Positions 10,072 to 26,544 of a DNA stretch of 32,573 bases are shown here, in pieces (position 1 is the first letter of the stretch; every line of letters starts with the position of its first letter). Position numbers and translations under genes: made by a program. Where the stretch lies: NCBI RefSeq assembly GCF_002855575.1, contig NZ_PKRQ01000011.1, positions 1-32,573 of the forward strand. The letters are read 5' to 3'. A model generated the notes under the pieces. The model searched no databases and was not told the DNA's origin. It saw nothing but the letters and a program-made list of their open reading frames with translations. The stretch comes from Tabrizicola sp. TH137. GTDB taxonomy: Bacteria > Pseudomonadota > Alphaproteobacteria > Rhodobacterales > Rhodobacteraceae.

Positions 10072-10104
10072 CGTAGGATTTAGCACCGTCCGGCAGCAGA
10101 CCCC
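10067..10104 (-). repeat. 38-bp terminal inverted repeat of the Tn3-family element
   Basis: Read from outside in (minus strand) it begins GGGGTCTGCTGCCGG and ends CCTACGCTAAG. It is exactly 38 bases, starts with GGGG and ends with TAAG, as Tn3-family ends do; the inner part resembles the Tn5393/Tn163 branch. It overlaps the tnpA stop codon. The first base beyond it belongs to another transposase gene. No left-end partner was found. Confidence 0.9.
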
Positions 10105-10674
10105 AACGTCCTGCGCGGGAAGATCGCGCATCAGCTGACGCGCCCCGTGGGGCGGCCTTCGCTGACCAAAGTCAAACGGTTCTACGAGGACTTCGAGTAT
10201 CAGGCGGCGTCCTGGGACAAGCCGCGCCGCGTCATCGCCAAGATCGAATGGCACCCGGGCGAGCTGTTCCCCAAAGTCGGCTTCATCGTCACCAACCTGC
10301 CGATGGAGCCGGATTGGGTGGCGCGGTTCTATAACCAGCGTGGCACCGCCGAGCAGCACATCAAGGAAGGCAAGTATGCCTTTCGCTGGACGCGGCTGTC
10401 ATGCCGGAAGTTCCGCGACAACGAGGTACGGCTGCAACTCCACGCGCTGGCCTACAATCTGGCTACCTTCCTGCGCTGCATCGAACTGCCCGAAGCCATG
10501 GCCGAGTGGTCATTGACCAGCCTGCAACTGAAGCTGATCAAGATCGGCGCCCGTGTCGTGCGCCACGCCCGCGCCATCACCTTCCAGCTGGCCGAGGTGG
10601 CCATCACCGGCCTGATGGTCCGCGCTATCCTCGCCGCCATCCGCCGATTGCGAGCGCCTCCGTCATGCGCATGA
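10105..10674 (+). pseudogene. C-terminal part of an IS1380-family transposase
   Basis: The frame is open from the base next to the Tn3 terminal repeat and gives about 189 codons without a proper start; GTG at 10147 is only an internal codon. Motifs typical of IS1380 transposases are visible: GELFPKVGFIVTNL, then RFYNQRGTAEQHIKEGK with the conserved catalytic-region glutamate, followed by TRLSCRKFRDNEVRLQLH and AYNLATFLR. The N-terminal half has been replaced by the Tn3 remnant, so the Tn3-type element evidently landed inside this IS. Non-functional. Confidence 0.88.
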
Positions 10675-10968
10675 CCGCGATCCGGACCCAAACTGAACAA
10701 AAGCGGCAGGACAGGTCTGTCCGCTGCGCTGAAAAATGACGCTGCCGAGCAAGGACGCGGCGGTCTCGCGGTCCGATCCGTCCAGCTCCAGCAGTCTGCG
10801 CGACCGCAGAGGCCGCTCGGGGCGAAAACAATTGTCCAGCGGTCGGATTCAGGCGATCTTCACGTCAGTCGGCACCCCACTTGGGGAATCTCGGGTTGAA
10901 ATCGAGTAAACCACGAGCATGCCTGCAGTAGCCTCCTGTGATCAGATCCGGTCACTCAGAGGTTCACT
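10675..10968. other. Gap between IS1380 remnant and recombinase
   Basis: This 294-bp stretch should contain the distal end of the IS1380 element and the promoter of the tyrosine recombinase. A short hairpin (CCCCA, two bases, TGGGG) lies at 10875-10886. No gene and no clear attachment-site core was recognised. Confidence 0.4.
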
Positions 10969-12453: not shown

Positions 12454-12693
12454 GTATCGAGAGGCGTCTCGCTGAGTAGTAGTGTTGAAGGATACCGATA
12501 GCAAAGCGGACACGCTGAAACTCGCGCGGCTTGCCGACACATCGTGTTGAACTTCCCAATTGGATAGTCCCCTGGAAATTTCACTGGAGGTGACCTGCCC
12601 CCCGGTCGTCCCTCGTTCATAACGAGAGTCCTTGGGGTTGATAGTGGTCGTTTTGGGCTTGGGCAAGCGCGCCGGGCGCGGAGCCCTCAGATT
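12454..12693. other. Gap between recombinase and IS5 element, possible solo IS end
   Basis: No gene. The run GGAGGTGACCTGCCCCCC near 12584-12601 resembles a terminal repeat of IS3-family elements, with no transposase next to it. A small dyad CGTTCATAACG is near 12614-12624. Otherwise nothing. Confidence 0.3.
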
Positions 12694-12711
12694 GGCTCTG
12701 TTGCACAAATC
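12694..12711 (+). repeat. IS5-element left inverted repeat
   Basis: GGCTCTGTTGCACAAATC; it pairs with the inverse copy at 13726-13743, the only differences being in the outermost bases. Confidence 0.88.
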
Positions 12712-12747
12712 GGCTGATGGCCGGAGCTTCCCCATCCCCGGACAGAC

Positions 12748-13680
12748 TTATCCTGTGACTTTCGTGATGGGCGTGCCGAGCGCGGTGAAGCCGTTGAGCA
12801 CGGCGACCCTGACCTGGAACTCCGCAACCTGACGGTCGAAGTCTCGGGCGGACAGGCGCTGCCCCAAGAGCTTGACGCAGTGCATCTTGGTCTCGGCGCG
12901 GCTTCGGCGGTGATACCCGCTCCATCGTCGCCAGATCGTCCGGCCAACCCGCTTCGATGTCCGCAGGATTTCGTTCCGGGCTATGGCTCCTGCGGTGTCG
13001 GGCTTCCATGGTTTGGCGTTCTTGCGGGGCGGGATGATCGCGGCCGCACGACGGGCCGCGATGGCGTCGTGGCACTTTCGGGTATCGAAGGCGCCATCGG
13101 CGGTAACGGTGGCGATCTCCTGATCGGGCGGGATCTGATCGAGCAACTCGGGCAGCATGGGCGCGTCGCCGATCTCGCTGGTGGTGAACTCGGCAGCGCG
13201 GATTTCCAAGGTCTTCTCGTCGATCCCGATGTGGATCTTGCGCCAGACCCTGCGCTTCGTGCCGCCATGCTTACGGGCGTTCCACTCCCCTTCGCCCTCG
13301 ACCTTGATCCCGGTGCTATCGACCAGCAGGTGCAGGGGGCCGTCCGAGCCGCGGTAGGGGATGTTCACCTTCAGGGTCTTCTGGCGCCGCGACAACGTGC
13401 TGAAGTCTGGCACGGCCCAGTCCAGGCCGATCAGCCGCAGCAGGCTCTCGACAAACCCCGTGGTTTGCCTGAGCGCCATGCCGGAGAGGACCTTCATCGT
13501 GAGGCAGGTCTGGATCGCGGCATCGCCGTAGTCGCGCTGTCGACCACGCTTGCCGGTCGGCGCCGCTTCCCAGGTCATGGCGGGGTCGAACCAGATCGTC
13601 AGCGAGCCGCGGCGCTTCAGCGCTTCGCTATACGCCGGCCAGTTCCTGGTCTTGTAGGTCGGGGGTGTCGGTCTGCTCAT
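12748..13680 (-). CDS. IS5-family DDE transposase
   Basis: The 310-residue protein is full length for IS903-like transposases. The DDE triad is complete: Asp121 in LLVDSTG, Asp195 in TADGAFDT and Glu263 in the signature Y-(2)-R-(3)-E, seen here as YHRRSRAE from Tyr256. An N-terminal DUF772-like segment (YGDAAIQTCLTMKVLSGMALR) precedes it. The ATG at 13680 lies 46 bases inside the right end. With both ends and all catalytic residues present the element may still be able to move. Confidence 0.93.
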   Translation of the reverse strand: MSRPTPPTYKTRNWPAYSEALKRRGSLTIWFDPAMTWEAAPTGKRGRQRDYGDAAIQTCLTMKVLSGMALRQTTGFVESLLRLIGLDWAVPDFSTLSRRQKTLKVNIPYRGSDGPLHLLVDSTGIKVEGEGEWNARKHGGTKRRVWRKIHIGIDEKTLEIRAAEFTTSEIGDAPMLPELLDQIPPDQEIATVTADGAFDTRKCHDAIAARRAAAIIPPRKNAKPWKPDTAGAIARNEILRTSKRVGRTIWRRWSGYHRRSRAETKMHCVKLLGQRLSARDFDRQVAEFQVRVAVLNGFTALGTPITKVTG

Positions 13681-13743: not shown

Positions 13744-13772
13744 TTTTGTCGACATCAAAGATTTTTGTTGAC
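13744..13772. promoter_or_regulatory. Repeated operator-like boxes before the FAD dehydrogenase operon
   Basis: TTTTGTCGAC at 13744-13753 and TTTTGTTGAC at 13763-13772 repeat with a 19-base period, about two helical turns. The first includes the perfect 8-bp palindrome TGTCGACA. They sit between the IS5 end and the first gene of an operon that ends with a GntR/FCD regulator, whose family commonly binds short TTGTNNACAA-type dyads. I take them as its candidate sites; the IS may have removed further upstream promoter DNA. Confidence 0.5.
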
Positions 13773-13802
13773 GAAAGTCCGAATACCTTGTGTCTTTCCA
13801 CC

Positions 13803-15521
13803 ATGACCAACGCCACGTCCCAAAGCTTCGATCTTGTCGTTATCGGCTCCGGCGCTGCGGGGCTGATGGCCGCCCTCACCGCGGCCGAACGGGGCCACAG
13901 CGTCGCCGTGGTCGAGGCGGATACCCGCATTGGCGGGGCGACCGCGCTGTCCGAGGGCATGGTCTGGGTTCCGAACACGCCCGAGGCGCGGCACCTGCCC
14001 GATGCGCCCAACCCGGCGGAGGAGGCGGCTGCCGCCCTTGCCTATCTGCGCGCCACCTCTGGCAATCTCTTCGATCAGGACCGGGCGCGCGCCTATCTTG
14101 ACCTGGCGCCCCAGGCGCTGGCACTGGCCGGGCGCGCGGCGGGGCTGACCTTCACGCTCAACCGCGGCTCACGCGATTACTACCCCGATGCCCCGGGGGC
14201 GACGCTGGGTCGGCGGGCGCTGAACCCCGATCCGGCCGTGATGCGGCAGATGGACCGCAGCCTCTTTGCCCGCCTGCGCTGGCCGCTCGGGACGATGCTG
14301 GTGCTGCGAGGCCTGTCCATCGCCAGCCGCGATGCGCCCGACTATCAGTCGCTGGGCCGCAGCCTGGCGGCGGTGCTCAGGGTGGCGGGCCATGTGCTGC
14401 GCTATGGGCTCGATCGCCTGCGCGGCTGGCCACGGGGCACGCGGCTGGCCAATGGCAATGTCATCGTCGCCAGCCTGGCCGAGGCGGTCCGCGCCAAGGG
14501 CGGGGTGATCGTCACCGACTGGTCGGTAGAGGGCCTGTGGCAGGCCGACGGCCGCGTGGCCGGGGTCACCGGCCCGCGCGGCCGGATTCTGGCGCGGCTC
14601 GGGGTCGTGCTGGCATCGGGCGGGTCGAACGCCGTGCCCGGCTCGCGCGCGGCCCTCGTCGGTGACCACCCCCATATCGCCATCCCGGCCGAGGCGCCCG
14701 TGCCGCCGCTCGAAACCCTGGTCGCCGGAACGGGTGCGGCCATCGTGACCGATGTCTCGCAGCCCGTCCTCTGGGCGCCCACCTCGGTCGTGCCGGCCTC
14801 GGTCGCGCGGGCCGGGGCCTGGCCGCATTTCGCCGACCGCGCCAAGCCGGGGGTGATCTGCCTTGGCCCCGATGGCCGCCGCTTCGCCAACGAGGCGCAG
14901 GTCTACCAGGATTTCGTCCCCGCGCTGATCGCCGCCACCGGCACCCACCCCGAGGGCCCGCATTGCTGGATCGTGACCGATCACCGCGCGCTGCGCCGCT
15001 ACGGCCTGGGGCCGGTCGGGCCCTTCCCGGTGCGGCTGGGGCCCTACCTGCGCGCGGGCTATCTCAAGCGCGGCGCGACGGTGGAGGATCTGGCCCGCGC
15101 CATCGGCCTGCCACCGTCTGCGATGCGCGACAGCATCGCGCTCTTCAACGCTTATGCCCGCGATGGCCGCGACGGGGATTTCGGCCGCGGCGACAGCGCC
15201 TATGACCGTGGCAACGGCGATGCGGCCCACGGCCCGAACCCCACGCTCGGCCCGCTGGAGCGGGGGCCGTTCTACGCCATCCGCATCGTGCCCGGCGATA
15301 TCGGCACGTTCATCGGCCTGCGCACCGATGCCAACGCCCGCGTGCTGGACCCCTCCGGCGCGGCCGTGCCCGGCCTCTGGGCCGCCGGCAGCGCCGCCGC
15401 CCCGATCACCGGCGGCAGCTATCCGGCGGCGGGGCTGACCATCGGGCAGGCGCTGACCTTCGGCTATGCCGCCGCTGAAGACGCTTGCGCCCAGGCGGGG
15501 CTGGCGAGGGCTGCCGAATGA
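13803..15521 (+). CDS. FAD-dependent dehydrogenase, KstD/fumarate-reductase-like
   Basis: The 572-residue flavoprotein begins with a dinucleotide fold (DLVVIGSGAAGLMAALTAAE) and the adjoining IGGATALSEGMVW loop characteristic of the FAD-binding-2 family (fumarate reductase flavoprotein, 3-ketosteroid delta1-dehydrogenase). The C-terminal FAD region with GLWAAGSAAAP and ITGGSYPAAGLTIGQALTFG is typical of the 3-ketosteroid dehydrogenase-like branch. Such enzymes introduce or remove C=C bonds next to a ketone. No export signal is seen, so it acts in the cytoplasm. It is the first gene of a nine-gene operon; its stop overlaps the next start by four bases (ATGA). The ATG at 13803 precedes the dinucleotide fold at the normal distance. 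Substrate unknown. Confidence 0.88.
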   Translation: MTNATSQSFDLVVIGSGAAGLMAALTAAERGHSVAVVEADTRIGGATALSEGMVWVPNTPEARHLPDAPNPAEEAAAALAYLRATSGNLFDQDRARAYLDLAPQALALAGRAAGLTFTLNRGSRDYYPDAPGATLGRRALNPDPAVMRQMDRSLFARLRWPLGTMLVLRGLSIASRDAPDYQSLGRSLAAVLRVAGHVLRYGLDRLRGWPRGTRLANGNVIVASLAEAVRAKGGVIVTDWSVEGLWQADGRVAGVTGPRGRILARLGVVLASGGSNAVPGSRAALVGDHPHIAIPAEAPVPPLETLVAGTGAAIVTDVSQPVLWAPTSVVPASVARAGAWPHFADRAKPGVICLGPDGRRFANEAQVYQDFVPALIAATGTHPEGPHCWIVTDHRALRRYGLGPVGPFPVRLGPYLRAGYLKRGATVEDLARAIGLPPSAMRDSIALFNAYARDGRDGDFGRGDSAYDRGNGDAAHGPNPTLGPLERGPFYAIRIVPGDIGTFIGLRTDANARVLDPSGAAVPGLWAAGSAAAPITGGSYPAAGLTIGQALTFGYAAAEDACAQAGLARAAE

Positions 15522-16240
15522 CCGCGATCCACGGCTTTACCGCAGACCTGTTCGCCGGCCGGCAAGTTGTCGTGACCGGGGCCGCGGGCGGGATCGGTCA
15601 GGCGATCATGGCCGCCTTCGCCGCCTGCGAGGCCACCACCATCGGCATCGACCGGGCCGAGGCGGTTCCGCAAGGGGCTCCCGACTGGATTGCCTGCGAT
15701 CTGGCCGACCGCGCCGACCTTGCCCGCGCCGCCGCCGCCATCACCGGGCCGGTCGCGGCGCTGATCCACTGCGCCGGCGTCTTTCGCCGCGTGCCGCTGG
15801 ACGATGCCACGACCGTGGCCGAATGGGATCGCACCCTTGCCGTCAACCTGACCGCGCCCTTCCTCATGACCCGCGCCCTCGTGCCGCAACTCGCTGGCGG
15901 GGCGATCGTCACCGTCACCTCGGTCCGCGCCAGCACCTCGGCCCGGCGGGCAGCGGCCTATACCGCCTCGAAGGGCGGGCTTGCCGCGCTGACCCTTGCC
16001 CTGGCCGATGAGCTTGCCCCACTGGGCATCCGCGCCAATGCCGTCGCCCCCGGCGATGTGGATACCGCCATGGGCCGCAGCGACCCCGCCATGACCCAGA
16101 AGCTGATCGCCCGCACCCCGCTTGGCCGCATGGCCCGGCCGATGGAGGTGGCCGCCGCCTGCGTCTACCTCGCCTCGCCTCTCGCCGCCTACATCACCGG
16201 CACCACCCTCCACGTCGATGGAGGGTTCCTCGCCGTCTGA
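15518..16240 (+). CDS. Short-chain dehydrogenase/reductase, operon gene 2
   Basis: The 240-residue classical SDR shows VTGAAGGIG (cofactor loop), HCAGVF, the catalytic Ser in TVTSVRAS, YTASKGG with catalytic Tyr and Lys, and NAVAPGDVDTAM. Acidic Asp after strand 2 (GIDRAE) suggests NAD(H), in keeping with a catabolic oxidation. It begins inside the stop codon of the FAD dehydrogenase, so translation is coupled. It probably oxidises an alcohol to the ketone that the FAD enzyme then desaturates, but the order of steps is inferred only from gene company. Confidence 0.9.
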   Translation: MTAIHGFTADLFAGRQVVVTGAAGGIGQAIMAAFAACEATTIGIDRAEAVPQGAPDWIACDLADRADLARAAAAITGPVAALIHCAGVFRRVPLDDATTVAEWDRTLAVNLTAPFLMTRALVPQLAGGAIVTVTSVRASTSARRAAAYTASKGGLAALTLALADELAPLGIRANAVAPGDVDTAMGRSDPAMTQKLIARTPLGRMARPMEVAAACVYLASPLAAYITGTTLHVDGGFLAV

Positions 16241-16312
16241 CCCGCCGAAACGACCAAAGACCAAGAAGCCGCCCTTCACCGGCGGCACAACCCCAACGAC
16301 AGGAGGATTGCA

Positions 16313-17122
16313 ATGAACAGAAGACTCTTCGCCCTCGCCCTCGCCTGCGCCACCGCGTTCGGCGCCATGGCCCAGACCGCCGTCGCCCGCTCCCTGGAAG
16401 AGATCATCGCCAGCGGGGTCCTGCGCGTCGGCACCTATGCCGACCAGCCGCCCATGGCCTCGCTCAACAACGCCGGCGAATATGAAGGCTTCGATATCGA
16501 GGTCGCCAACCATATCGCCGCCGTCATGCAGGTCGAGGTCGAGATCGTGCCCCTGACCACCGCACAGCGCATCCCCTTCCTGCAATCGGGGCAGATCGAC
16601 ATTTCGCTGGGCGCGCTGACCCGCACGCCGGAACGCGCGCTTCTGGTCGATTACACCATTCCGCTCCATTCGGAATCGGTGCTGGTCCTGACGACCGAGG
16701 AAAACGCGATCACCACCTGGCGCGACCTGAACGCGCCGGACCAGACGCTGGCCTCGGGGCGCGGCTACTGGACGACCGACATGGTCAAGGCCGAACTGCC
16801 CGAAGCGAAGCAAGACCTCTACGACGCGCCCGCCGATCAGGTGCGCGCGGTGGCGCAGGGCCGCGCGACCGCCATCGTCGACATCATCGACACGATGATG
16901 GTCTTCACCGAACAATACCCGGATGTGAACTGGAAGGTCATCGAATCCGAGATCTATTCCGCCTGGTGCGCCATCGGCGTGCCGCGCGGCGAGGAAGGGC
17001 TGAAGAACTTCCTCAACGTGGTGATCTACAACATGCACAGCAGCGGCAAGACGCAGGAATACTGGGCCAAATGGTATGGCGCGCCGAACCAGAAGCCGGT
17101 TCCGCTTGACCCCGTGTTCTGA
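16313..17122 (+). CDS. ABC importer periplasmic binding protein, polar amino-acid type
   Basis: The 269-residue protein starts with a Sec signal peptide (MNRRLFALALACATAFGAMA, cleavage likely near AVA-RS) and continues as a family-3 solute-binding protein: LRVGTYADQPPMAS, then EGFDIEVANHIAAVM, the ligand-loop region DISLGALTRTPERALLVDYT, and a second lobe. The strong site AGGAGG lies six bases before the ATG. A small hairpin, GCCGCC (16268-16273) with GGCGGC (16281-16286), precedes it. Proteins of this class bind amino acids or related zwitterionic or acidic small molecules; the exact ligand cannot be read. Two permeases and an ATPase follow. Confidence 0.93.
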   Translation: MNRRLFALALACATAFGAMAQTAVARSLEEIIASGVLRVGTYADQPPMASLNNAGEYEGFDIEVANHIAAVMQVEVEIVPLTTAQRIPFLQSGQIDISLGALTRTPERALLVDYTIPLHSESVLVLTTEENAITTWRDLNAPDQTLASGRGYWTTDMVKAELPEAKQDLYDAPADQVRAVAQGRATAIVDIIDTMMVFTEQYPDVNWKVIESEIYSAWCAIGVPRGEEGLKNFLNVVIYNMHSSGKTQEYWAKWYGAPNQKPVPLDPVF

Positions 17123-17130
17123 CATCAACA

Positions 17131-17160
17131 GGCCCGGGCCCCGCAAGCTGCGCCCGGGCC
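17131..17160 (+). terminator. Intergenic hairpin between binding protein and permeases
   Basis: GGCCCGGGC at 17131-17139 pairs perfectly with GCCCGGGCC at 17152-17160 over a 12-base loop, directly after the binding-protein gene. No T-run follows. In ABC import operons such a hairpin often stabilises the upstream mRNA or causes partial termination so that more binding protein than permease is made. Confidence 0.65.
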
Positions 17161-17182
17161 GCCCTCGAACCCGCAAGGCAAG

Positions 17183-17857
17183 ATGAACTACAGCCTTCAA
17201 TACGGCCAGATCGCCGCCGACGTGCCCTATATCCTGGCGGGCGCCTGGCCGACGCTGTGGCTGACCTTCGTGATCTTCTTTGCCTCGGCCGCCCTCGGCC
17301 TCTTCATCGCCATGGCCCGGCTGAAGGGCGGGCCGGTTGCGGCGCGCGCGGCGGGGGTGTGGGTGACGCTGACCACCAACTCGCCGCTGTTCGTCGTGCT
17401 GTTCTTCCTGTTCAACGGCCTGCCGAACTGGGGCATCCTGCTGTCGCCCGTCGCGGCCACGCTGATCGCCTTCATCGCCATCTCCTCGGGCTATCTGGCC
17501 GAGATCCAGCGCGGCGGCATCCTTTCCGTCCGCGCCTCCGAACTTGACGCGGCCGAAGTGCTGGGCATGTCCCGCCTGCAGACGCTGCGCTTCGTCATCG
17601 CGCCCCATGTCATCAAGACCACCTACCCGGCGCTGTCGAACTTCTTCATCTTCACGATGCTTGGCACCTCCATGGCGTCGCTCGTGGGCGTGAACGAGCT
17701 GACCGGCCGCGCGATCGAGGTCACGTCGCGCACCTTCCGCTCGATCGAGGTCTTCTCGCTGGTCGCCGTCACCTATGTCGTCCTGTCGCTGCTGGCCAGC
17801 CTCGCGCTGGCGCTGGTGGGCAGGATGCTGTTCCGCGTCAAGGCGCGGGTGCTGTGA
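17183..17857 (+). CDS. ABC importer permease, HisM/GlnP type, first
   Basis: The 224-residue inner-membrane protein has five likely transmembrane helices and the cytoplasmic EAA loop that docks on the ATPase (ELDAAEVLGMSRLQTLRFVI). The N-terminal region WPTLWLTFVIFFASAALGL matches the polar-amino-acid uptake family. Its stop overlaps the next permease start by four bases. It is predicted to form a heterodimeric channel with the second permease. Confidence 0.92.
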   Translation: MNYSLQYGQIAADVPYILAGAWPTLWLTFVIFFASAALGLFIAMARLKGGPVAARAAGVWVTLTTNSPLFVVLFFLFNGLPNWGILLSPVAATLIAFIAISSGYLAEIQRGGILSVRASELDAAEVLGMSRLQTLRFVIAPHVIKTTYPALSNFFIFTMLGTSMASLVGVNELTGRAIEVTSRTFRSIEVFSLVAVTYVVLSLLASLALALVGRMLFRVKARVL

Positions 17858-18543
17858 TGCAGGACCTGGCCGCCCTCTTCACCCTTGGCAACATGCAGTT
17901 CCTCTTGCGCGGGGCGCTGATGACGCTGCTACTCACCCTCATCGGCTGCTCGGTCGGCCTGATCGCGGGGTTCCTCCTTGCCTATGCGCGCGGCAGTCGG
18001 GGCATGGCGCTTGCCCCCCTCCGCTGGGCTGTCATCGCCTTTGTCGAGGTGTTCCGCCGCATCCCCTTTCTGGTGACGCTCTTCCTCGTCCTTTACGCCG
18101 CCCAGCTTTTCATCCCGCGCGCGCCGCTGTTCTGGGTGGCGGTCACCTCGATCTGCCTGCTCTCCAGCGCCTATATGGCCGAGATCGTGCGCGCCGGCAT
18201 GGAAAGCGTGCCCCGCGCCCAGATCGAGGCGGCCGAGGTGATGAACCTGCCGCGCTGGCGCATCACCGCGATGATCGTGATGCCGCAGGCCTGGAAGGTG
18301 ATCCTGCCCTCGGCCGTGTCCTACATGGTGATGTTCGTCAAGGACACGGCGCTCGCCAGCCAGGCCGGGGTGTTCGAACTCATGTTCGCCGGCAAGGCGC
18401 TGGCCAACCGGGGGCTTGACCCGTTCCTGGTCTTCGCAACCGTGCTGTTTGCCTATTTCATCATCTCGTGGCCCCTCGCGCTCCTCGGCCAGACGTTGGA
18501 GCAGAGGCTGGCCCGCCGCCCCACCCGAAAGGACATCCGATGA
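17854..18543 (+). CDS. ABC importer permease, HisM/GlnP type, second
   Basis: The 229-residue membrane protein is homologous in layout to its upstream partner, with an EAA loop at IEAAEVMNLPRWRITAMIVM and the typical VSYMVMFVKDTALAS segment. It begins with an ATGA overlap with the first permease and ends with the same kind of overlap with the EthD-domain gene, so three genes are translationally coupled. It forms the second half of the importer channel. Confidence 0.92.
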   Translation: MMQDLAALFTLGNMQFLLRGALMTLLLTLIGCSVGLIAGFLLAYARGSRGMALAPLRWAVIAFVEVFRRIPFLVTLFLVLYAAQLFIPRAPLFWVAVTSICLLSSAYMAEIVRAGMESVPRAQIEAAEVMNLPRWRITAMIVMPQAWKVILPSAVSYMVMFVKDTALASQAGVFELMFAGKALANRGLDPFLVFATVLFAYFIISWPLALLGQTLEQRLARRPTRKDIR

Positions 18544-18899
18544 TCAAGGTCATGTGGTTTCTGAAACGCGCGCCGCATCTGACGCAGGCGGAATTCGCCG
18601 ACTGGTGGCTGCACCGCCACGCCCCCGACATCGCGGCGGACCAGGCGCCTTACCTGAAACGCTACGTCATCGACCTGCGGGTCGAGGATGAAAGCGCCCT
18701 TGCCGGCAAGCCCGCCCATGACCCCGAATGGGATGGCATCGCCGAACAGTGGTTCGCGACCGAAGCGGATTATAACGCCGTCTACGCCCGCGCCGACCGC
18801 CCCACCCGCGCCGATACGCTGGCCCATACCTCGGCCTTTCAACGCATGGTGGTGCGGGAATATGAACAACCGCTGGGGGGCCCCGATGCCGCATCTTGA
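18540..18899 (+). CDS. EthD-domain protein
   Basis: This small 119-residue protein has the EthD/dimeric alpha-beta-barrel pattern: an opening strand (IKVMWFLKRAPHL), the characteristic segment FADWWLHRHAPDI and a closing stretch with FQRMVVREYE. Members of this fold act as small decarboxylases, dehydratases or cyclases, or as helper subunits in catabolism of ethers and aromatics; no single reaction can be assigned. It is unusual that it lies between the permease and ATPase genes of an importer, overlapping the permease by 4 bases and the ATPase by 14. That points to an enzymatic step tightly tied to uptake. Confidence 0.85.
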   Translation: MIKVMWFLKRAPHLTQAEFADWWLHRHAPDIAADQAPYLKRYVIDLRVEDESALAGKPAHDPEWDGIAEQWFATEADYNAVYARADRPTRADTLAHTSAFQRMVVREYEQPLGGPDAAS

Positions 18900-19623
18900 G
18901 ATCACGGGCCTCGATGTCCGCTATGGTGCCGCCACGGTCCTGCAAGGCATCGACCTGAGCGTGGAGCGGGGCGAACTGGTCGGGCTGGTCGGCCCCTCTG
19001 GCTCTGGCAAGTCCACGCTGCTGCGCGCGCTGGTGGGGCTGGTGCCGCCGGTGGCGGGGCGGGTGGTGCTGAAAGGGACGGCGGTGGATTACGCCAGCAA
19101 AGCCTCACTCCGGGCGTTCCGCGACCATACCGCCATCGTGTTCCAGCAATACAACCTCTTCCAGAACATGTCGGTGCTGGACAACATCACCGTCACCCCG
19201 ATCAAGGTGCGCCACCGCCCGAGGGCCGAGGCCGAGGCCGAGGCCCGCGCCCTTCTGGCCCGCGTGGGCCTGGCCGACAAGGCCGATGCCTTCCCCGACC
19301 AGCTGTCCGGCGGCCAGCAGCAGCGCGTCGCCATCGCCCGCGCCCTTGCCCTGAAACCCGCACTGATCCTGCTGGACGAGGTGACAGCAGCCCTTGACCC
19401 CGAACTTGTCCGCGATGTGCTGGATGTGATCCAGGATCTGGCCCGCGACGGGATCACCATGCTTCTGGTCAGCCATGAGATGGGCTTCATCCGCGAAGCC
19501 GCGCATCGTGTGGTGATGATGGACGCCGGCCGCGTGGTCGAGGTCGGGCCGCCCGCCCAGATCTTCGACGCGCCGCAGCAGGACCGGACGCGCGCCTTCA
19601 TGTCCAAGATCATCCGGCATTAA
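18886..19623 (+). CDS. ABC importer ATPase, polar amino-acid type
   Basis: The 245-residue ATPase has all motifs: Walker [11 protein letters not shown]-loop VFQQYNLF, signature LSGGQQQR, Walker [13 protein letters not shown] and the switch histidine in VSHEMGF. The ALDPELV run after Walker B is typical of the amino-acid-uptake branch. The ATG at 18886 gives the standard start before [10 protein letters not shown]; an alternative ATG at 18862 would lengthen the overlap with the EthD gene. It powers the importer formed by its upstream neighbours. Confidence 0.94.
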
Positions 19624-19632
19624 GGGGGAAAC

Positions 19633-20376
19633 ATGCGGTTCTCAGGCAAACGGGTTCTGATCGTCGGCGCCTCCTCCGGCCTTGGTGCCGCCGCGGCGCG
19701 GGCCTTCGCGGGCCAGGGCGCGGCGCTGGTGCTGGTGGACCGGGACGCGGCGGGGGTGCAGCACCTCGCCGCCACACTGCCGGATGCCACCGCGATTGCA
19801 GGCGACGCCACCGACGCCGCCACCGTCGCCGCCGCCACGGCAGGCGCGGTGGATATCCTGATCCACACCGCCGGGATCGACCCCTTGTCGGCCACCGATG
19901 TGCCCGGCACCAGCCTGGACGACTGGCAGGCGATCCTCGCGGTCAACCTGACCTCGGCCTTCCTTTTCGCCCGCGCCGTCCTGCCGGGGATGATCGACCG
20001 GCGCTGCGGCACGTTGCTCTTCACCGGCTCCATCGCCGGGCTGAAACCCACGCCGAATGAGGTCGCCTATTCCGTCTCGAAGGCCGGGGTCATCCAGCTG
20101 ATGCGGGCCATCGCGCTGGACCATGCGCGCCAGGGCATCCGCGCCAATGCGCTGTGCCCCGGCTTTCTGGAATCCGTCATGGCCGATCGCAAGGGGGCCA
20201 TGACCGCCGACGCCCTCGCCGCCCGGTCCGAGGCCGCCGCCGCCCTCGTCCCCCTCGGGCGCGAGGGGCGCTATGCCGAAATGGCCGCCCTGGCAATGAC
20301 CCTATGCGACGATGCGGTCTCGGGCTACATCACCGGCCAATCGATTGTGGCGGATGGTGGGATGATGCTCGCATGA
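19633..20376 (+). CDS. Short-chain dehydrogenase/reductase, operon gene 8
   Basis: This 247-residue classical SDR shows IVGASSGLG, VDRD after strand 2 (favouring NAD(H)), HTAGID, the catalytic Ser in LFTGSIAG, YSVSKAG with Tyr and Lys, and a C-terminal YITGQSIVADGG. It begins nine bases after the ATPase stop and its own stop overlaps the GntR start (ATGA). With the SDR at 15518 it gives the pathway two separate alcohol/ketone steps, for example on two different hydroxyls of one molecule. Confidence 0.9.
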   Translation: MRFSGKRVLIVGASSGLGAAAARAFAGQGAALVLVDRDAAGVQHLAATLPDATAIAGDATDAATVAAATAGAVDILIHTAGIDPLSATDVPGTSLDDWQAILAVNLTSAFLFARAVLPGMIDRRCGTLLFTGSIAGLKPTPNEVAYSVSKAGVIQLMRAIALDHARQGIRANALCPGFLESVMADRKGAMTADALAARSEAAAALVPLGREGRYAEMAALAMTLCDDAVSGYITGQSIVADGGMMLA

Positions 20377-21077
20377 CCAAGGAACCGAAGCTGGCCACCG
20401 AAAAGCAGCCGCGTGGCGGGAATGTCGACCTCGTCTATTCCACCCTGCGCGACGATATCCTCGAACTGCGCCGCGCCCCGGGCGAGGTGCTGGACGAAGC
20501 CGAGATTGCCGCCACCTTCGGCCTGTCCCGTTCCCCCGTGCGCGAGGCGATCGTGCGCCTGACCGCCGAAGGCCTGGCCGAGGCGCTGAAGAACCGGGGC
20601 GCCGTCGTCTCCCGCCTGGATATCGAGACGCTGCCCGCCTATTTCGACGCGCAGACGCTGCTCTTTCGCCTGACCTCGCGGCTGGCGGCGCAGCGGGGCG
20701 GCCCCCTGGCGGCCGCCCGCCTGCAACGCATCCAGGATCGGCATGAAACCATCGTCGCCGCGCGCGATGCCAACGGGGTGATCCTGTCCAACCGCCAGTT
20801 CCATCTGGAAATCGCGGCCATCGGCGGCAACCGCTATTATCAGGACTGGCTGGGCGGCATCCTCGACCAGGGCCAGCGCATCATGCGGCTCTACGTCCGC
20901 CTGCATGACGAGGCGGTGCCGACCGACCAGCTCTCGTTTCACCACGCCCTGATCGACGCCATCGCCCGCAAGGATGTCGACGCCGCCGACCGCGCCGCCG
21001 CCGCCGATGCGCAGATCGTCCGCGACGAGATCTCGCGCCAGATTTCGGCGGGGGCCGCGCTGACGGTGCCGCTTTAG
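20373..21077 (+). CDS. GntR-family regulator, FCD subfamily
   Basis: The 234-residue protein has an N-terminal winged helix (VYSTLRDDILELRRAPGEVL, then AEIAATFGLSRSPVREAI and LTAEGL) followed by an all-helical FCD ligand domain with metal-ligand-like histidines in NRQFHLEIAAI and LSFHHALIDAI. FCD regulators typically respond to organic acids or sugar acids. It is the last gene of the importer/dehydrogenase operon, coupled to the SDR by a 4-base overlap, and likely controls the operon through the boxes at 13744-13772. The gene ends four bases before the convergent hppD stop. Confidence 0.92.
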   Translation: MTKEPKLATEKQPRGGNVDLVYSTLRDDILELRRAPGEVLDEAEIAATFGLSRSPVREAIVRLTAEGLAEALKNRGAVVSRLDIETLPAYFDAQTLLFRLTSRLAAQRGGPLAAARLQRIQDRHETIVAARDANGVILSNRQFHLEIAAIGGNRYYQDWLGGILDQGQRIMRLYVRLHDEAVPTDQLSFHHALIDAIARKDVDAADRAAAADAQIVRDEISRQISAGAALTVPL

Positions 21078-21080
21078 GCC

Positions 21081-22178
21081 TCAGGTCAGCGACAGGACCC
21101 CGCGATCCAGCTGATCCTGCTCGATGCTTTCAAACAGCGCGCGGAAGTTGCCTTCGCCAAAGCCGTCGTCGCCCTTGCGCTGGATGAACTCGAAGAAGAT
21201 CGGCCCGATCACGGTTTTCGAGAAGATCTGCAGCAGGATCTTCGTCTCGCCGCCGCCGACCACCCCCTCGCCGTCGATCAGGATGCCATGGCGCGCCATC
21301 CGGTCGATGGGTTCCTGATGCCCCACCACACGCGTCTTCGACAGCTCGTAATAGGCCATCGGCGGCTTCGGCATGAACTTCAGACCCCGCGCGGCGATGG
21401 TATCGGTCGCGCTGTAAAGATCGTCCGAGCCGACCGCGATATGCTGGATCCCCTCGCCGTTATAGCGCTTCAGGTATTCGACGATCTGCCCCGTCTCGCC
21501 CCGATCCTCGTTGATCGGAATACGGATGCGCCCGCAGGGGCTGGTCAGCGCGCGCGACAGCAGGCCGGTATACTTGCCGGCGATGTCGAAGAACCGTATC
21601 TGACGAAAGTTGAACAGCCGCCCGTAGAAGTCGAACCACCTGTCCATGTTGCCGCGATGGACGTTGTGGGTCAGGTGATCCAGATAGTGGAACCCCACCC
21701 CCGGCGGTTTCGGCTGGGCAACCCAGTCGAAACCCGCGTCATAGGGCGACAGGCCCGCGCCATAACGGTCGATGAAATAGATCAGCGATCCGCCGATCCC
21801 CACGATTGCCGGCAGGTCCAGCACGCGATCCGCACCCGCATAGGGCTCTGCCCCATTGGCCAGCGCATGGGCATAGGCTTTGGCCGCATCCGCCACCCGC
21901 CAGCCCATCGAGGGCGCGCAGGGCCCGTGCTCCTGCACGAAACGGCGGGCATGGCTGCCGGGGTCATCGTTCAGGATATAGGTGATGTCGCCCTGCTGCC
22001 AAAGTTCCACCGCGCGGCTCTGGTGGCGGGCGACCAGGGTATATCCCATCCGCTGAAAAAGACCGCGCAGCTCCTCGGGGTTCGGATGGGCGAATTCCAC
22101 GAATTCGAACCCGTCGGTCCCCGCCGGATTGTCGGCGCTGATCCGGGCGCGGGGGGCATCATGCGGAAAGGGACCCAT
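21081..22178 (-). CDS. hppD: 4-Hydroxyphenylpyruvate dioxygenase
   Basis: The 365-residue enzyme converts 4-hydroxyphenylpyruvate to homogentisate with release of CO2. Both vicinal-oxygen-chelate halves are present and the Fe(II) facial triad is visible: His168 in DHLTHNV, His246 in GIQHIAV and Glu330 in IFFEFIQRKG. The C-terminal signature GDDGFGEGNFRALFESIE is diagnostic. The start at 22178 (MGPFPHD) is preferred over ATGs at 22184 and further upstream because AGGAG lies six bases before it. It is transcribed divergently from an Lrp-type regulator across a 132-bp gap with an inverted repeat. Confidence 0.97.
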   Translation of the reverse strand: MGPFPHDAPRARISADNPAGTDGFEFVEFAHPNPEELRGLFQRMGYTLVARHQSRAVELWQQGDITYILNDDPGSHARRFVQEHGPCAPSMGWRVADAAKAYAHALANGAEPYAGADRVLDLPAIVGIGGSLIYFIDRYGAGLSPYDAGFDWVAQPKPPGVGFHYLDHLTHNVHRGNMDRWFDFYGRLFNFRQIRFFDIAGKYTGLLSRALTSPCGRIRIPINEDRGETGQIVEYLKRYNGEGIQHIAVGSDDLYSATDTIAARGLKFMPKPPMAYYELSKTRVVGHQEPIDRMARHGILIDGEGVVGGGETKILLQIFSKTVIGPIFFEFIQRKGDDGFGEGNFRALFESIEQDQLDRGVLSLT

Positions 22179-22310: not shown

Positions 22311-22766
22311 ATGATCGACCAGACCGATTCCCGCCTGCTGGCCGAGGTCCAGCGCCGCGCCGACATCACGGCGGCGGACCTGGGGCAGATCCTGAACCTC
22401 TCTCCCAGTCAGGCCGCCCGTCGCCGCCAGCGGCTGGAGCAGGCCGGCGTGATCACCGGCACCCGCTGCCGGCTTGATCCGGGAAAGCTGGGGCTGACCG
22501 TGCAGGCCTTCGTGCAGGTCCAGATGGCCGCGCACAGCCCCGAGGCCGCGCGATCCTTCCTGACCCTGATCGCCACCCTGCCCGAGGTTGTGGCCTGCTG
22601 GACCCTGACGGGAGAGGCGGATTACCTCCTCCGCGTCTGGTGCGCCGATCTGGCCGCGCTGAACCGGCTGATCCATCACCGCCTTCTGCCCCACGCCGCC
22701 GTGTCGCGCGTGCAAAGCCAGATCGTGATGGACCAGCCGAAGGCGGATTCCGGCCTGCCGGTCTAG
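22311..22766 (+). CDS. Lrp/AsnC-family transcriptional regulator
   Basis: The 151-residue protein begins with the typical Lrp opening (MIDQTDSRLLAEVQRRADIT) and helix-turn-helix (DLGQILNLSPSQAARRRQRLE, close to the usual AxxxGLSxxxVxxRxxxLE), then the RAM effector domain with LTVQAFVQVQM and VVACWTLTGEADYLLRV. The ATG at 22311 matches the family start; another at 22293 is possible. Such regulators sense amino acids, here plausibly tyrosine or phenylalanine, and often activate the divergent catabolic gene, here hppD. It overlaps the convergent MarR gene by four bases. Confidence 0.92.
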   Translation: MIDQTDSRLLAEVQRRADITAADLGQILNLSPSQAARRRQRLEQAGVITGTRCRLDPGKLGLTVQAFVQVQMAAHSPEAARSFLTLIATLPEVVACWTLTGEADYLLRVWCADLAALNRLIHHRLLPHAAVSRVQSQIVMDQPKADSGLPV

Positions 22767-23191
22767 GCGCCCGCGATCAGCCGCCGCAGCGCGGCCTCCA
22801 GCGGGCCCGCCGCCCCGCCCAACCGGTCGCGCAGCGCCTGGTCATGCTGGCGGGCCTCTTGCCCCAGCGCGGCAAAGACCGCGCGGCCGGTATCGGTAAG
22901 CCGCAGCACCTCGGCCCGGCCGTCCTGCGGGTCGGGCGCGCGCTGCAACAGACCCTGCCCCTCCAGCGCGGTCACCGCACGGCTGACCTTGGTCTTCTCC
23001 ACATGGCTTGCCGCACAGATCGCCGTCGCCGTCATCGCGCCGAACCGGCCAAGGTTCGCCAGCACCCGCCACTGCGTCCGCGTCATCCCATAAGCGGCGT
23101 AGACCGGCTGAAACCCCCGCGACGTCGCCTCGGCCGCCTGGTTCAGAAGATAGGGCAGGAACTGGTCAAGGTCGAACTCCGGGTCCGTCAT
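22763..23191 (-). CDS. MarR-family regulator of the homogentisate genes
   Basis: The 142-residue MarR protein has the helix-turn-helix region MTATAICAASHVEKTKVSRAV and a wing with PQDGRAEVLRLTDTG. It follows maiA with a 4-base overlap and is transcribed with it. In Pseudomonas the IclR protein HmgR fills the equivalent role; here a MarR protein linked to hmgA/maiA is the obvious candidate, and an 18-bp perfect palindrome between maiA and hmgA fits a MarR dimer. The inducer would be homogentisate or a neighbour metabolite (inferred). Confidence 0.9.
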   Translation of the reverse strand: MTDPEFDLDQFLPYLLNQAAEATSRGFQPVYAAYGMTRTQWRVLANLGRFGAMTATAICAASHVEKTKVSRAVTALEGQGLLQRAPDPQDGRAEVLRLTDTGRAVFAALGQEARQHDQALRDRLGGAAGPLEAALRRLIAGA

Positions 23192-23814
23192 GTGTCGGGC
23201 CTGGTCTGGTCAGGGTGGGCGGCGGCAAAGGCGGGCAGGGCCCCGGCCCGGTCGGCGATGCCGGTCAGCCGCGGAAAGGCGGCCAGATCAACTCCCCAGC
23301 GCCGCGCGTTGTAAACCTGCGGGACAAGGCAGATGTCGGCAAGGCTCGGCCGGTCGCCATGGCAGAACGGGCTGCCCCCTTGCAGCAACCCCTCCACCCC
23401 CGCCAGGCCAAGCGTGATGAAATGCCCCATCCACGCCGCCATCGCCGCCGGATCATCCCCTGCCGCATGGCGTGCCACGCGCAGGTTGCAGACCGGCTGG
23501 ATATCCATCGCGATGGCATGGGCCAGCGCCCGCACCCGCGCCCGATCCGCCGGACCGGCAGGCAGGAACCCGGGGCCCCGCGTCTCCTCCAGATAGTCCA
23601 GGATCGCCAGCGACTGCGTCAGCCGCAGCCCGTCGATCTCCAGCACCGGGACCAGGCCTTGCGGGTTCAGCGCCAGATGCGCGGGCAAGGCCTGCGCGCC
23701 CGCCGCAAGGTTCACCTCGACCCGGGCATAGGGCAGCCCCGTCAGGTTCAGCGCAATCCGCACCCGGTAGGCCGAGGAAGATCGCCAGTAATCGTGCAGC
23801 ACAATCCTTGGCAT
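23188..23814 (-). CDS. maiA: Maleylacetoacetate isomerase (zeta-class GST)
   Basis: The 208-residue protein isomerises maleylacetoacetate to fumarylacetoacetate with glutathione. The zeta-class active-site motif is seen as [16 protein letters not shown] (usual SSCSWRVRIAL; here Ala replaces Cys), followed by [13 protein letters not shown] and the [10 protein letters not shown] glutathione-binding segment. The C-terminal helical domain has [16 protein letters not shown]. The start at 23814 (MPRIVLHDY) fits family length; upstream ATGs would overlap the operator. It is the first gene of a two-gene unit with marR, divergent from hmgA. Confidence 0.93.
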
Positions 23815-23930: not shown

Positions 23931-25262
23931 ATGACCGACCTGATCCAGGGCCACTCCGGCCTGCACGCCCGCTACATGCCCGGCTTCGGCAATGACTTCG
24001 AGACCGAGGCCCTCCCCGGCGCCCTCCCGCAGGGCCAGAACAGCCCGCAGAAATGCGCCTACGGGCTTTATGCCGAACAGCTTTCCGGCTCGGCCTTCAC
24101 CAAGCCGCATCCCGAACGCACTTGGTGCTACCGCATCCGCCCCAGCGTCAAGCACACCGGCCGGTTCCAGCGGATCGACCTGCCGCTGTGGAAGACCGCC
24201 CCGCATGTGCTGCCCGAGGTGACAAGCCTCGGCCAATACCGCTGGGATCCGGTCCCGCATGAAGACCGGCCGCTGACCTGGGTCACCGGCATGCGCACCG
24301 TCACCACGGCGGGCGATGTGAACACGCAGACCGGCATGGCGGCGCATGTCTACCTGGTGACCGCCTCGATGCAGGACGACTATTTGTATTCGGCGGATGG
24401 AGAGCTTCTGGTCGTCCCGCAGGAAGGCCGCCTGCGCTTTTGCACCGAGCTTGGGGTGATCGACCTCGAACCGAAAGAGATCGCGCTTCTCCCCCGTGGC
24501 CTGGTCTACCGGGTAGAGGTGCTGGACGGCCCCGCCCGCGGCTTTGTCTGCGAGAATTACGGCCCGCCCTTCACCCTGCCGCATCGTGGCCCCATCGGCG
24601 CGAATTGCCTGGCCAACCCGCGCGACTTCAAGACCCCCGTCGCCGCGTTCGAGGATCGCGACGCCCCCACCACCGTCACGCTCAAGTGGTGCGGCCAGTT
24701 CCACCGCACCAAGATCGGCCACAGCCCCCTCGACGTGGTCGCCTGGCACGGCAATTACGCGCCCTGCAAATATGACCTGCGCAGCTATTCCCCGGTCGGC
24801 GCGATCCTGTTCGACCATCCCGACCCCTCGATCTTCACCGTCCTGACCGCGCCCTCCGGGCTGGAAGGAACGGCGAACATCGACTTTGTCCTGTTCCGCG
24901 ACCGCTGGCTGGTGGCCGAGCACAGCTTTCGCCCGCCCTGGTATCACAAGAACGTGATGTCAGAGCTCATGGGCAACATCCACGGCGTCTACGATGCCAA
25001 GCCCAAGGGCTTTGTCCCTGGCGGCATGTCCCTGCACAACTGCATGTTGCCGCACGGGCCTGACCGCACCGCGTTCGAGGGGGCCTCCAACGCCACCTTG
25101 CGGCCCGAAAAGCTGGAGGAGACGATGTCCTTCATGTTCGAAACCCGCTTTCCCCAGCACCTGACGGACTGGGCGGCGCGCACCGCCCCGCTGCAGGACG
25201 ATTACATCGACTGCTGGGCCAGCCTGGACAAGAAGTTCGACGGCACAGCGGAACCGAAATGA
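23931..25262 (+). CDS. hmgA: Homogentisate 1,2-dioxygenase
   Basis: The 443-residue ring-cleavage enzyme converts homogentisate to maleylacetoacetate. It opens with the conserved [19 protein letters not shown] and keeps the Fe(II) ligands His339, Glu345 ([11 protein letters not shown]) and His375 (LPHGPD), with exactly the spacing of the human enzyme's 335/341/371. The ATG at 23931 has CAGGA eight bases upstream; ATG at 23895 is an alternative. fahA follows ten bases behind, so the two form one transcription unit divergent from maiA-marR. Confidence 0.97.
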
Positions 25263-25272
25263 AGGGGTCGGC

Positions 25273-26544
25273 ATGGGCCTGATCAGAAGCTGGGTCGCCG
25301 GGGCCAATCGGCCAGAGGGGCCGTTTCCCCTGAACAACCTGCCCTGCGGCGTGTTTTCCACCGAAGGCACCGCCCCGCGTTGTGGCGTGGCAATCGGCGA
25401 CCATGTGCTTGACGTTGCGGCGGTTGAGGCAAGTGGGCACTTACCCCTGCCCGGCGACCCCTACTTCACCGCCCCCGCCTGGAATGCGCTGATGGCCGCC
25501 GGTCCGTCCGTTTGGGCAGAACTCCGCGCCCGTCTGACCGCCCTGCTGGCCGAGGGCGCAGATCCCACCGCCGTTATATCCCATCTCGTGCCCCTTGCAG
25601 GAACGCGCCTGCACTTGCCGTTCCGCATTGCCGAGTTCACCGACTTCTACGCTGGCCGCCATCACGCGGAAAACGTCGGCACCATGTTTCGCGGGGCCGA
25701 GCAGGCCTTGCCGCCGAACTGGCTGCATATCCCCATCGGCTATAACGGGCGGGCCTCCTCGGTCGTCGTCTCGGGCACGCCGTTCCGCCGCCCCTGGGGC
25801 CAGATCAAGGGGCCTGGCGACAGCGCCCCCCGCTTCGCCCCCTCCGCCTGCTTCGATATCGAGCTTGAGCTGGGCGCCATCGTCGGCACCCCCTCGCAGG
25901 GCCCGGTCACGGTGGCCGAGGCCGAGGCGATGATCTTCGGCTATGTCCTTCTCAACGACTGGTCGGCGCGCGACATCCAGGCCTGGGAATACCAGCCCCT
26001 CGGTCCCTTCCAGTCAAAGGCCACCGCCACCACGATCAGCCCCTGGATCGTCACCAGCGCCGCGCTGCAGCCGTTCCGCATCCCCGCCCCGCCCCGTGAA
26101 CTGCCGCTTCTGCCGCATCTGCGGGACCCCGGCCCCCTGCACCACGACATCGCGCTGGAGGTCGCCCTGACCCCCGCCAACGGGCGGGAAACGGTGATCA
26201 GCCGCACCAACGCGCGCCAGCTTTACTATTCCGCCGCCCAGCAACTGGCGCATCACAGCACCTCGGGCTGCCCGATGACCACGGGCGATCTTCTGGGGTC
26301 CGGCACGATCTCCGGCCCGACGAAAGACAGCCGTGGCAGCCTGCTGGAACTGTCCTGGGGCGGGGCGGACCCGATTGCGGTAGACGGTTGCATCCGGAGC
26401 TTCCTCGAAGACGGCGATACGGTTGTGCTGCGGGGCGAATGCCTAGGCGATGGGTATAGGGTTGGCTTCGGCGAGTGCAATGGAACGGTTTTGCCGGCGT
26501 TGGAGAACCCATTTCACGGAATCAATTGCGCGGCTGAAGTCTGA
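25273..26544 (+). CDS. fahA: Fumarylacetoacetase, with altered C-terminus
   Basis: The 423-residue hydrolase splits fumarylacetoacetate to fumarate and acetoacetate, the last step of the pathway. Catalytic-metal residues are in place: Asp in FTDFYAGRHHAENVG, Glu pair in CFDIELELGA and Asp in LLNDWSARDIQAWEY; the QPLGPFQSK stretch is diagnostic. The protein reads normally to the family's usual end (GFGECNGTVLPA) and then continues for 14 residues, LENPFHGINCAAEV, that belong to no FAH protein I know. The DNA beyond this point changes character and contains IS remnants, so the original stop was probably lost at a junction near 26500. Activity is likely retained. Confidence 0.95.
   Translation: MGLIRSWVAGANRPEGPFPLNNLPCGVFSTEGTAPRCGVAIGDHVLDVAAVEASGHLPLPGDPYFTAPAWNALMAAGPSVWAELRARLTALLAEGADPTAVISHLVPLAGTRLHLPFRIAEFTDFYAGRHHAENVGTMFRGAEQALPPNWLHIPIGYNGRASSVVVSGTPFRRPWGQIKGPGDSAPRFAPSACFDIELELGAIVGTPSQGPVTVAEAEAMIFGYVLLNDWSARDIQAWEYQPLGPFQSKATATTISPWIVTSAALQPFRIPAPPRELPLLPHLRDPGPLHHDIALEVALTPANGRETVISRTNARQLYYSAAQQLAHHSTSGCPMTTGDLLGSGTISGPTKDSRGSLLELSWGGADPIAVDGCIRSFLEDGDTVVLRGECLGDGYRVGFGECNGTVLPALENPFHGINCAAEV

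Follow-up and report, generated by a model that had tools for sequence, protein, structure and literature searches.

A rare nine-gene operon beside the homogentisate genes of Tabrizicola sp. TH137 that probably imports a cyclic hydroxylated amino acid and oxidises it to tyrosine

What does an operon take up and oxidise when it joins a complete ATP-binding cassette (ABC) importer to a KstD-like flavoenzyme, two short-chain dehydrogenases (SDRs) and a protein of the EthD family? We address this question for nine genes at positions 13803-21077 of the forward strand of a 32,573-nucleotide stretch of Tabrizicola sp. TH137 (assembly GCF_002855575.1, contig NZ_PKRQ01000011.1, positions 1 to 32,573), the whole of which we call the window. 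We infer that it probably imports a cyclic, hydroxylated amino acid, and tyrosine, the probable product of its oxidation, would enter the homogentisate pathway, whose genes, beginning with hppD (4-hydroxyphenylpyruvate dioxygenase), adjoin the operon.

The operon and its relatives

The nine genes are certainly real at the following coordinates, and a conserved site precedes them:

13748..13773, + strand: near-palindromic operator/-35 region GTCGACANNNNANATNNNNNTTGNCG, from the aligned upstream regions of six nine-gene loci
13803..15521, + strand: KstD-like FAD dehydrogenase, proposed aromatising enone desaturase (FAD_binding_2, 3.3e-64)
15518..16240, + strand: SDR1, short-chain dehydrogenase, proposed ring-hydroxyl oxidase (adh_short_C2, 2.6e-47)
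16313..17122, + strand: periplasmic binding protein (SBP_bac_3, 5.1e-31)
17183..17857, + strand: ABC permease 1 (BPD_transp_1, 7e-15; TIGR01726, 75.1 bits, cut-off 42.2)
17854..18543, + strand: ABC permease 2 (BPD_transp_1, 1.4e-14; TIGR01726, 67.6 bits, cut-off 42.2)
18540..18899, + strand: EthD-family protein, proposed lyase/isomerase for a retro-aza-Michael ring opening (Pfam EthD, 1.4e-7)
18886..19623, + strand: ATPase of the ABC importer (ABC_tran, 1.8e-37; the frame scanned with Pfam is given from 18892)
19633..20376, + strand: SDR2, short-chain dehydrogenase (adh_short_C2, 1.3e-46)
20373..21077, + strand: GntR/FCD regulator, proposed regulator of the operon (GntR, 1.8e-16; FCD, 1.6e-15)

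Pfam assigns a family to each of the nine, in agreement with a preliminary description made from the letters alone, which had listed a complete importer, three putative oxidation enzymes, an EthD protein and a GntR/FCD regulator on one strand. In all nine genes the G+C content is highest at the third codon position, lower at the first and lowest at the second. The same description counted four ATGA junctions; four start/stop overlaps of 4 bases are present, three of them ATGA (at 15518, 18540 and 20373), but the fourth reads GTGA (at 17854). The EthD and ATPase genes overlap by 14 bases. Orthologues support 13803 as the start of the flavoenzyme, and so does the conserved site immediately 5' of the gene.

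A scan of genome contigs with the flavoenzyme, which used two short peptide patterns and therefore gives a lower bound, returned 11 loci, eight of them 63-74% identical; their gene maps rest on tblastn. All nine genes stand in the same order and on the same strand in five of these eight: L042 (Tabrizicola), L043 (Pseudorhodobacter), L044 (Aestuariivirga), L046 (Yoonia vestfoldensis DSM 16212) and L049 (a 'Rhizobium' metagenome-assembled genome, or MAG). Because order and orientation recur in this way, the operon is not a chance arrangement. Identity to the window across these five is highest for the binding protein (87-91%), permease 1 (83-90%), the EthD protein (82-88%) and the ATPase (81-88%), followed by the GntR protein (79-83%), permease 2 (72-81%), SDR2 (70-77%), SDR1 (66-75%) and the flavoenzyme (66-74%).

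The other three close relatives (L045 and L048 in Rhodobacter MAGs, L047 in Aestuariivirga) carry a rearranged variant that keeps the flavoenzyme, SDR1, the EthD protein and SDR2 without the window-type importer, and adds a second EthD protein, a second flavoenzyme, a third SDR, a more distant GntR protein and another importer. L045 lies on the same contig as L033 of genome G274 and was counted once. One flavoenzyme and one EthD protein occupy each half of the variant, which suggests that the two work as a unit. Among the distant loci, L050 has a 35% identical flavoenzyme alone and L051 an EthD-like protein and flavoenzyme pair with a different importer; the third, L052, was left out of the comparison.

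Conservation of the gene set, which the preliminary description proposed as a check, thus holds for gene order in five of the eight close relatives, but the operon is rare in the sampled genomes. Of 295 genomes sampled from the family, two match the EthD protein at 1e-8. The window genome is one of the two, and it is also the only genome with the binding protein among 19 of the genus and the only one with it at operon-like identity among 390 of the order. In the family of L044 the EthD protein occurs in 3 of 69 genomes (L044, L047 and L049), so the 'Rhizobium' MAG belongs to that family. The flavoenzyme tree places L044 and L049 among Rhodobacterales rows with strong support, which argues for horizontal transfer; judged by these comparisons, the operon is rare and horizontally transferred. 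No close relative of the flavoenzyme or the EthD protein was found on plasmids (best 43% and 35%, respectively), and none of the eight stretches of viral contigs that fitted a search pattern encodes a relative.

We rejected the EthD protein as a wide marker: its matches at 1e-8 in the class sample (20 of 385 genomes, including the window genome) are mostly weak, and among ten larger stretches fetched around EthD genes only L073 (G526) has a flavoenzyme beside one. L073 (G526:C47, 2671-7923) holds a third type of set, with an EthD protein (62%), an SDR, an FAD enzyme that is 45% identical to the B-type flavoenzyme, an SDR1-like protein (48%) and a DAO-family oxidase.

Mobile elements occur near two of the operons. 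In the window, a cluster at 8674-13680 contains a Tn3 transposase, a DDE transposase, a phage-type integrase and an insertion sequence (IS) transposase; the frame of the last, the nearest to the operon, begins 122 bases before the flavoenzyme start. In L042, transposase-like open reading frames, judged by eye, flank the operon on both sides.

The importer and the oxidising enzymes

An SBP_bac_3 binding protein, two HEQRo-type permeases that both exceed the TIGR01726 cut-off and an ATPase, all within one operon, make up an importer of the amino-acid type. Among solved structures, the binding protein is closest to ancestral reconstructions of cyclohexadienyl dehydratase and of amino-acid binding proteins. 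At 1e-60 its family is found in 13 of 390 genomes of the order, the window genome included, and the other 12 members are 40-52% identical over the match. We read ten loci of such relatives, from eight of these 12 genomes and two plasmids, and surveyed them by tblastn with ten hydroxyproline-cluster enzyme queries, five of the ten loci having supplied queries. The relatives outside the operon (39-52% identical) adjoin hydroxyproline-type genes at nine of the ten loci. Five have a gene for a 3-hydroxyproline dehydratase, of the cis-3 type in L141, L142 and L146 and the trans-3 type in L145 and L147; the dehydratases scored against named NCBIfam models pass their cut-offs (L145, trans-3, 581.1 versus 550; L146, cis-3, 861.6 versus 700). 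L140, L143, L144 and L148 have DAO and DHDPS-family genes without this dehydratase; we take these genes to serve hydroxyproline catabolism. Given these neighbours, the ligand of the importer is likely to be a cyclic secondary amino acid. The amino-acid-like substrate of the preliminary description therefore stands, but the importer is not a generic one: it belongs to a subfamily of hydroxyproline-type clusters. In L141-L148 this Rhodobacteraceae subfamily often has conserved, unidentified neighbours as well.

The same kinship would suit a smaller hydroxylated imino acid (hydroxyproline, hydroxypipecolate or their betaine) being oxidised to a pyrrole or pyridine, with hppD nearby by coincidence. 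We consider this unlikely. The 3-hydroxy-L-proline clusters of Rhodobacteraceae share the importer subfamily (binding protein 46-52% identical at seven of eight genome loci, 40% in L148), but their catabolic enzymes, namely dehydratases, DAO and DHDPS-family proteins, are entirely other, and none of the ten enzyme queries finds a match in the window (1e-10) or at L042, L043, L044, L046 and L049 (1e-20). Such a substrate would also leave the repeated hppD linkage without explanation, and the catalytic residues of the flavoenzyme are typical of enzymes acting on cyclic ketones. The binding protein tree splits the six rows from operons and the hydroxyproline-type rows into separate groups (100/100), with a warning on two long branches.

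R108 and an Asp at position 193 are kept in 13 of 13 aligned binding proteins. The canonical Asp of such proteins holds the alpha-ammonium group. One alignment puts Asp193 two positions C-terminal to the AncCDT-1 Asp, and another gaps both together; that the shifted Asp would suit a ring nitrogen is speculation.

The flavoenzyme aligns with solved KstDs. Its residues Y126, Y368, Y540 and G544 match the catalytic Y119, Y318, Y487 and G491 of KstD1, the numbering being matched through the constant 20-residue offset of the 4c3x chain; the roles of the four are described in PMC5348764. This tetrad is invariant in 12 of 12 aligned enzymes, both paralogue types included, and the enzyme was thus rightly described as KstD-like. 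It scores below the cut-off of every NCBIfam model among the best 25 of the 79 matched; the first functionally named match among those 25 is ChcC2 (4-oxocyclohex-2-ene-1-carboxylate 5-dehydrogenase), and curated membership is not reached (ChcC2, 359.8 versus 900; PRK12844, 353.7 versus 789; PRK07843, 342.6 versus 788). The enzyme is therefore of the same flavoprotein family as the KstDs and keeps their four catalytic residues, but falls short of the NCBIfam KstD models, and Pfam scans of the window recognised no steroid genes. From its family, the expected chemistry is alpha,beta-dehydrogenation of a cyclic ketone.

Aromatisation by such enzymes is known from the cyclohexanecarboxylate pathway, the product of which is 4-hydroxybenzoate. 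There, the ChcB SDR oxidises a ring hydroxyl and the KstD-like ChcC1 and ChcC2 then desaturate the 4-oxocyclohexane or 4-oxocyclohexene acid (NF053676, NF053677, NF053701); the window operon differs in its EthD protein, its amino-acid-type importer, its hppD linkage and its scores below the curated cut-offs. If the likeness were taken at face value, the operon would degrade an ordinary alicyclic acid, a steroid fragment or a naphthenic acid and the importer would be unrelated, a reading that fits the flavoenzyme family and a third SDR of the variant L045, which matches ChcB2 below its cut-off (159.4 versus 350). We judge it improbable, since the flavoenzyme lies far under the ChcC2 cut-off, the binding protein has hydroxyproline-type kin, and the nine-gene form contains one KstD-like enzyme where two desaturations are needed to turn a saturated cyclohexanone into a phenol.

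The EthD protein scores 33.0 bits against a Pfam gathering score of 22. Its structure model (pLDDT 85.8) resembles ferredoxin-like dimeric proteins of alpha+beta fold, and the best match in PDB is 4-methylmuconolactone methylisomerase (E = 7.4e-7, TM 0.70 by query length, 19% identity). The mechanism of that enzyme is one of addition and elimination. The EthD protein, as modelled, would share its fold (PDB 3hfk, 3hds) but is only about 20% identical to it, and the reaction of the EthD protein is hypothetical. H27 is invariant in 12 aligned EthD members and at most one residue from H26 of the methylisomerase in that alignment; no conserved residue was seen in the EthD alignment as a counterpart of the methylisomerase H52, which is mutated in one PDB entry.

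At about 1-11261 of L037 (G000:C38:17000-33000), also in the window genome, an EthD-domain protein (31%) precedes another KstD-like flavoenzyme (39%). Alongside stand a PotABCD-type importer, a class III aminotransferase, an aldehyde dehydrogenase and a LysR regulator, and a fragment of an SDR lies at the edge. This set may be an analogous pathway for an amine-bearing ring compound.

Linkage to hppD and the upstream site

Downstream, hppD converges on the operon: the last operon gene finishes at 21077, and the hppD stop codon starts at 21081. The genes from there on are:

21081..22178, - strand: hppD, 4-hydroxyphenylpyruvate dioxygenase, through which the product is proposed to enter the homogentisate pathway (Glyoxalase_5, the HPPD N-terminal domain, 2.9e-48)
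22311..22766, + strand: lrp, putative Lrp-type regulator; next to hppD in every mapped hppD locus
22763..23191, - strand: marR, MarR regulator (MarR_2, 6.5e-17)
23188..23814, - strand: glutathione transferase, presumably maiA (maleylacetoacetate isomerase) from its place in the cluster; open reading frame with inferred start, homologues of which lie with hmgA/fahA in other clusters
23931..25262, + strand: hmgA, homogentisate 1,2-dioxygenase (HgmA_N, 3e-113; HgmA_C, 4.1e-70; start inferred)
25273..26544, + strand: fahA, fumarylacetoacetase (FAA_hydrolase, 7.2e-39; FAA_hydrolase_N, 1.3e-21)

The frames of hppD, hmgA and fahA are uninterrupted, and a complete copy of the pathway, maiA included, adjoins the operon. 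Such clusters also stand without it: L095 (on contig C33 of the same genome), L098 and L102 are complete and have no nine-gene operon in the stretches read. A link to hppD and hmgA had been suggested as a further check, and it is borne out, with hppD near the operon at four of nine operon loci (the window, L044, L047 and L049) and hmgA adjoining in the window. In L044 and L049 the operon starts just past lrp, on the opposite side of hppD from the arrangement in the window, and the variant cluster of L047 occupies the same place flanking lrp. In the genomes of L042, L045 and L046 (G692, G695 and G696) hppD lies elsewhere, either on a different contig or at a long distance.

Two homogentisate clusters, both complete, occur in the window genome, one in the window and one on C33; they differ in gene order. 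An hppD gene is present in 5 of 19 genomes of the genus. The C33 hppD groups with three congeners and a Rhodobacter MAG (100/99), with the window copy outside; the nearest congener of the window copy is G297 (86%), its placement in the tree being otherwise unresolved. The hppDs of L044, L047 and L049 form a group of their own (99/98) without the window copy. Transfer of the operon and hppD as a single block is disfavoured by this separate group of the Aestuariivirga family, several other branches of the tree being weak. Since the operon lies on opposite sides of hppD and the hppDs do not group together, two or more independent origins are the simplest account of the linkage. This in turn suggests a shared function and makes tyrosine or 4-hydroxyphenylpyruvate the likely product. 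The preliminary description had the operon importing its substrate and oxidising it towards an aromatic ring; the importer, the oxidising enzymes and the KstD residues agree with that, and the likely product is narrowed to these two compounds.

The 26 bases of GTCGACANNNNANATNNNNNTTGNCG are common to all six nine-gene loci before the first gene, amid an otherwise poorly conserved background, and end in a TTGACG-like -35 element. Exact matches number one per genome in each of the six nine-gene genomes, and none was found in the three variant genomes; the pattern was built from the six sites, so absence elsewhere is its sole informative part. At two or fewer mismatches it occurs at 50 places in 9 genomes versus 20 for the reversed control. 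Because the GntR protein is conserved together with the site, it is probably the regulator that acts on 13748-13773.

A proposed route from Choi to tyrosine

Choi is 2-carboxy-6-hydroxyoctahydroindole, and the aeruginosins, which are protease inhibitors, are common peptides of harmful cyanobacterial blooms. Choi is described as a conserved, characteristic unit of most aeruginosins, made by AerD-F (PMC12838216, PMC8609519, PMC10744761). Several features converge on this compound: a ring-hydroxylated cyclic secondary amino acid as the likely ligand, a desaturase of the KstD type, a protein of lyase-like fold and a route through 4-hydroxyphenylpyruvate. By our own calculation Choi (C9H15NO3) less 4H is tyrosine (C9H11NO3). 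We therefore tentatively read the operon, at rather less than an even chance, as a mobile, horizontally spread upper pathway that handles an alicyclic imino acid of tyrosine carbon skeleton, most likely Choi from cyanobacterial aeruginosins.

In this scheme, in which the order of steps is hypothetical, the hydroxyproline-type binding protein and ABC importer would take up Choi, and an SDR would convert its 6-hydroxyl to a ketone (-2H). The hydroxyl-bearing carbon has the nitrogen at its beta position, and oxidation would thus yield a beta-amino ketone, from which an EthD-assisted retro-aza-Michael elimination, itself hypothetical, could release the nitrogen to give 3-(4-oxocyclohex-2-enyl)alanine. 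The flavoenzyme would then introduce a double bond on the opposite side of the ketone (-2H), in the way that KstD acts on a 4-en-3-one, and the dienone would tautomerise to tyrosine. Because the elimination yields an enone, which needs one desaturation, a single KstD-like enzyme would be enough in the nine-gene form. Housekeeping transamination could convert tyrosine to 4-hydroxyphenylpyruvate, and the adjacent hppD, maiA, hmgA and fahA would carry it to fumarate and acetoacetate. The second SDR may act on the other hydroxyl epimer or a congener, and the GntR protein would control the operon from 13748-13773.

The same logic could apply to another substrate, such as tetrahydrotyrosine, an anticapsin-like compound or another 4-hydroxycyclohexyl- or cyclohexenyl-alanine or -pyruvate, yielding tyrosine or 4-hydroxyphenylpyruvate with the EthD protein as an isomerase. 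Tetrahydrotyrosine is an isomer of Choi by our calculation, and the hppD linkage, the KstD tetrad and the similarity to ChcC2 fit it equally well. We nevertheless think this reading unlikely: the hydroxyproline-type kin of the binding protein favour a ring nitrogen, and sources such as bacilysin-type products of Bacillus are ill-suited to lake and cyanobacterial habitats. For quinate-like acids and opines, which the preliminary description had also considered, no evidence was found, and no separate test of either was made. Its general idea is largely supported, and Choi is an added candidate that fits the mass balance.

Names of MAGs in the form M...S... ending in QC or MG belong to four of the eight close relatives (L044, L045, L047 and L048) and to the distant L051. 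A study that names a genome M083S1 sequenced individual Microcystis colonies, taken from Lake Champlain in Quebec and from Pampulha in Minas Gerais (PMC8477515). We infer from the names that these MAGs stem from that study, in the text of which the accession was not found. The Yoonia strain presumably came from an Antarctic microbial mat. A cyanobacterial habitat, as the MAG names suggest, would also fit mycosporine-like amino acids or gadusol-type cyclohexenones of cyanobacteria and algae, which combine a cyclohexenone ring with an amino-acid substituent. We regard these as very improbable substrates, because their carbon skeleton does not lead to 4-hydroxyphenylpyruvate, and the hppD linkage and the second homogentisate cluster would then be accidental.

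Several observations weigh against the route from Choi to tyrosine. The nine-gene operon contains no peptidase or aminotransferase, and one of its two SDRs is surplus to the scheme. A recognised hydroxyproline dehydratase is present at only five of the ten loci of binding protein relatives; among the DAO and DHDPS-family proteins tested none passes the cut-off of a named model, the matches being below it or absent at 1e-40, and tblastn found no hydroxyproline-type genes at L139. The structure model of the binding protein is poor (pLDDT 67), so ligand contacts cannot be read from it, and the binding protein of the variant is only 24-26% identical to that of the window. The sequence match of the EthD protein to the methylisomerase is weak (E = 0.06). 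No hppD was seen in the examined flanks of L042, L045, L046 and L048, and that of L043 is too short to tell; the search for hppD was positive in 7 of 10 genomes, with no match in G693, G698 and G526 (the completeness of G693 and G698 is not stated). No branch is starred in the hmgA and fahA trees, and these say nothing about the window copy. Finally, none of the 50 places that resemble the upstream site in 9 genomes (two or fewer mismatches) is at hppD, and the site is absent from the homogentisate genes, so there is no sign of shared control.

The loss of aeruginosins in a bacterial system has been reported in a biofilm study, the passages of which that were read name no responsible genes (PMC10620996). 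We found no catabolic pathway described for aeruginosin or Choi, or for tetrahydrotyrosine or anticapsin, in a literature search of titles and openings that left most subscription journals outside. The enzyme families are known, and their nine-gene combination is new as far as this search showed. With somewhat greater doubt than attaches to the substrate, we propose that this is the first catabolic Choi operon, by which heterotrophs associated with cyanobacteria un-make Choi to tyrosine, and which has spread between orders and docked beside hppD. If this is true, the operon would provide the first marker genes for the breakdown of aeruginosin (Choi), a biological route from an alicyclic to an aromatic amino acid, and a catalytic role for an EthD-family protein.

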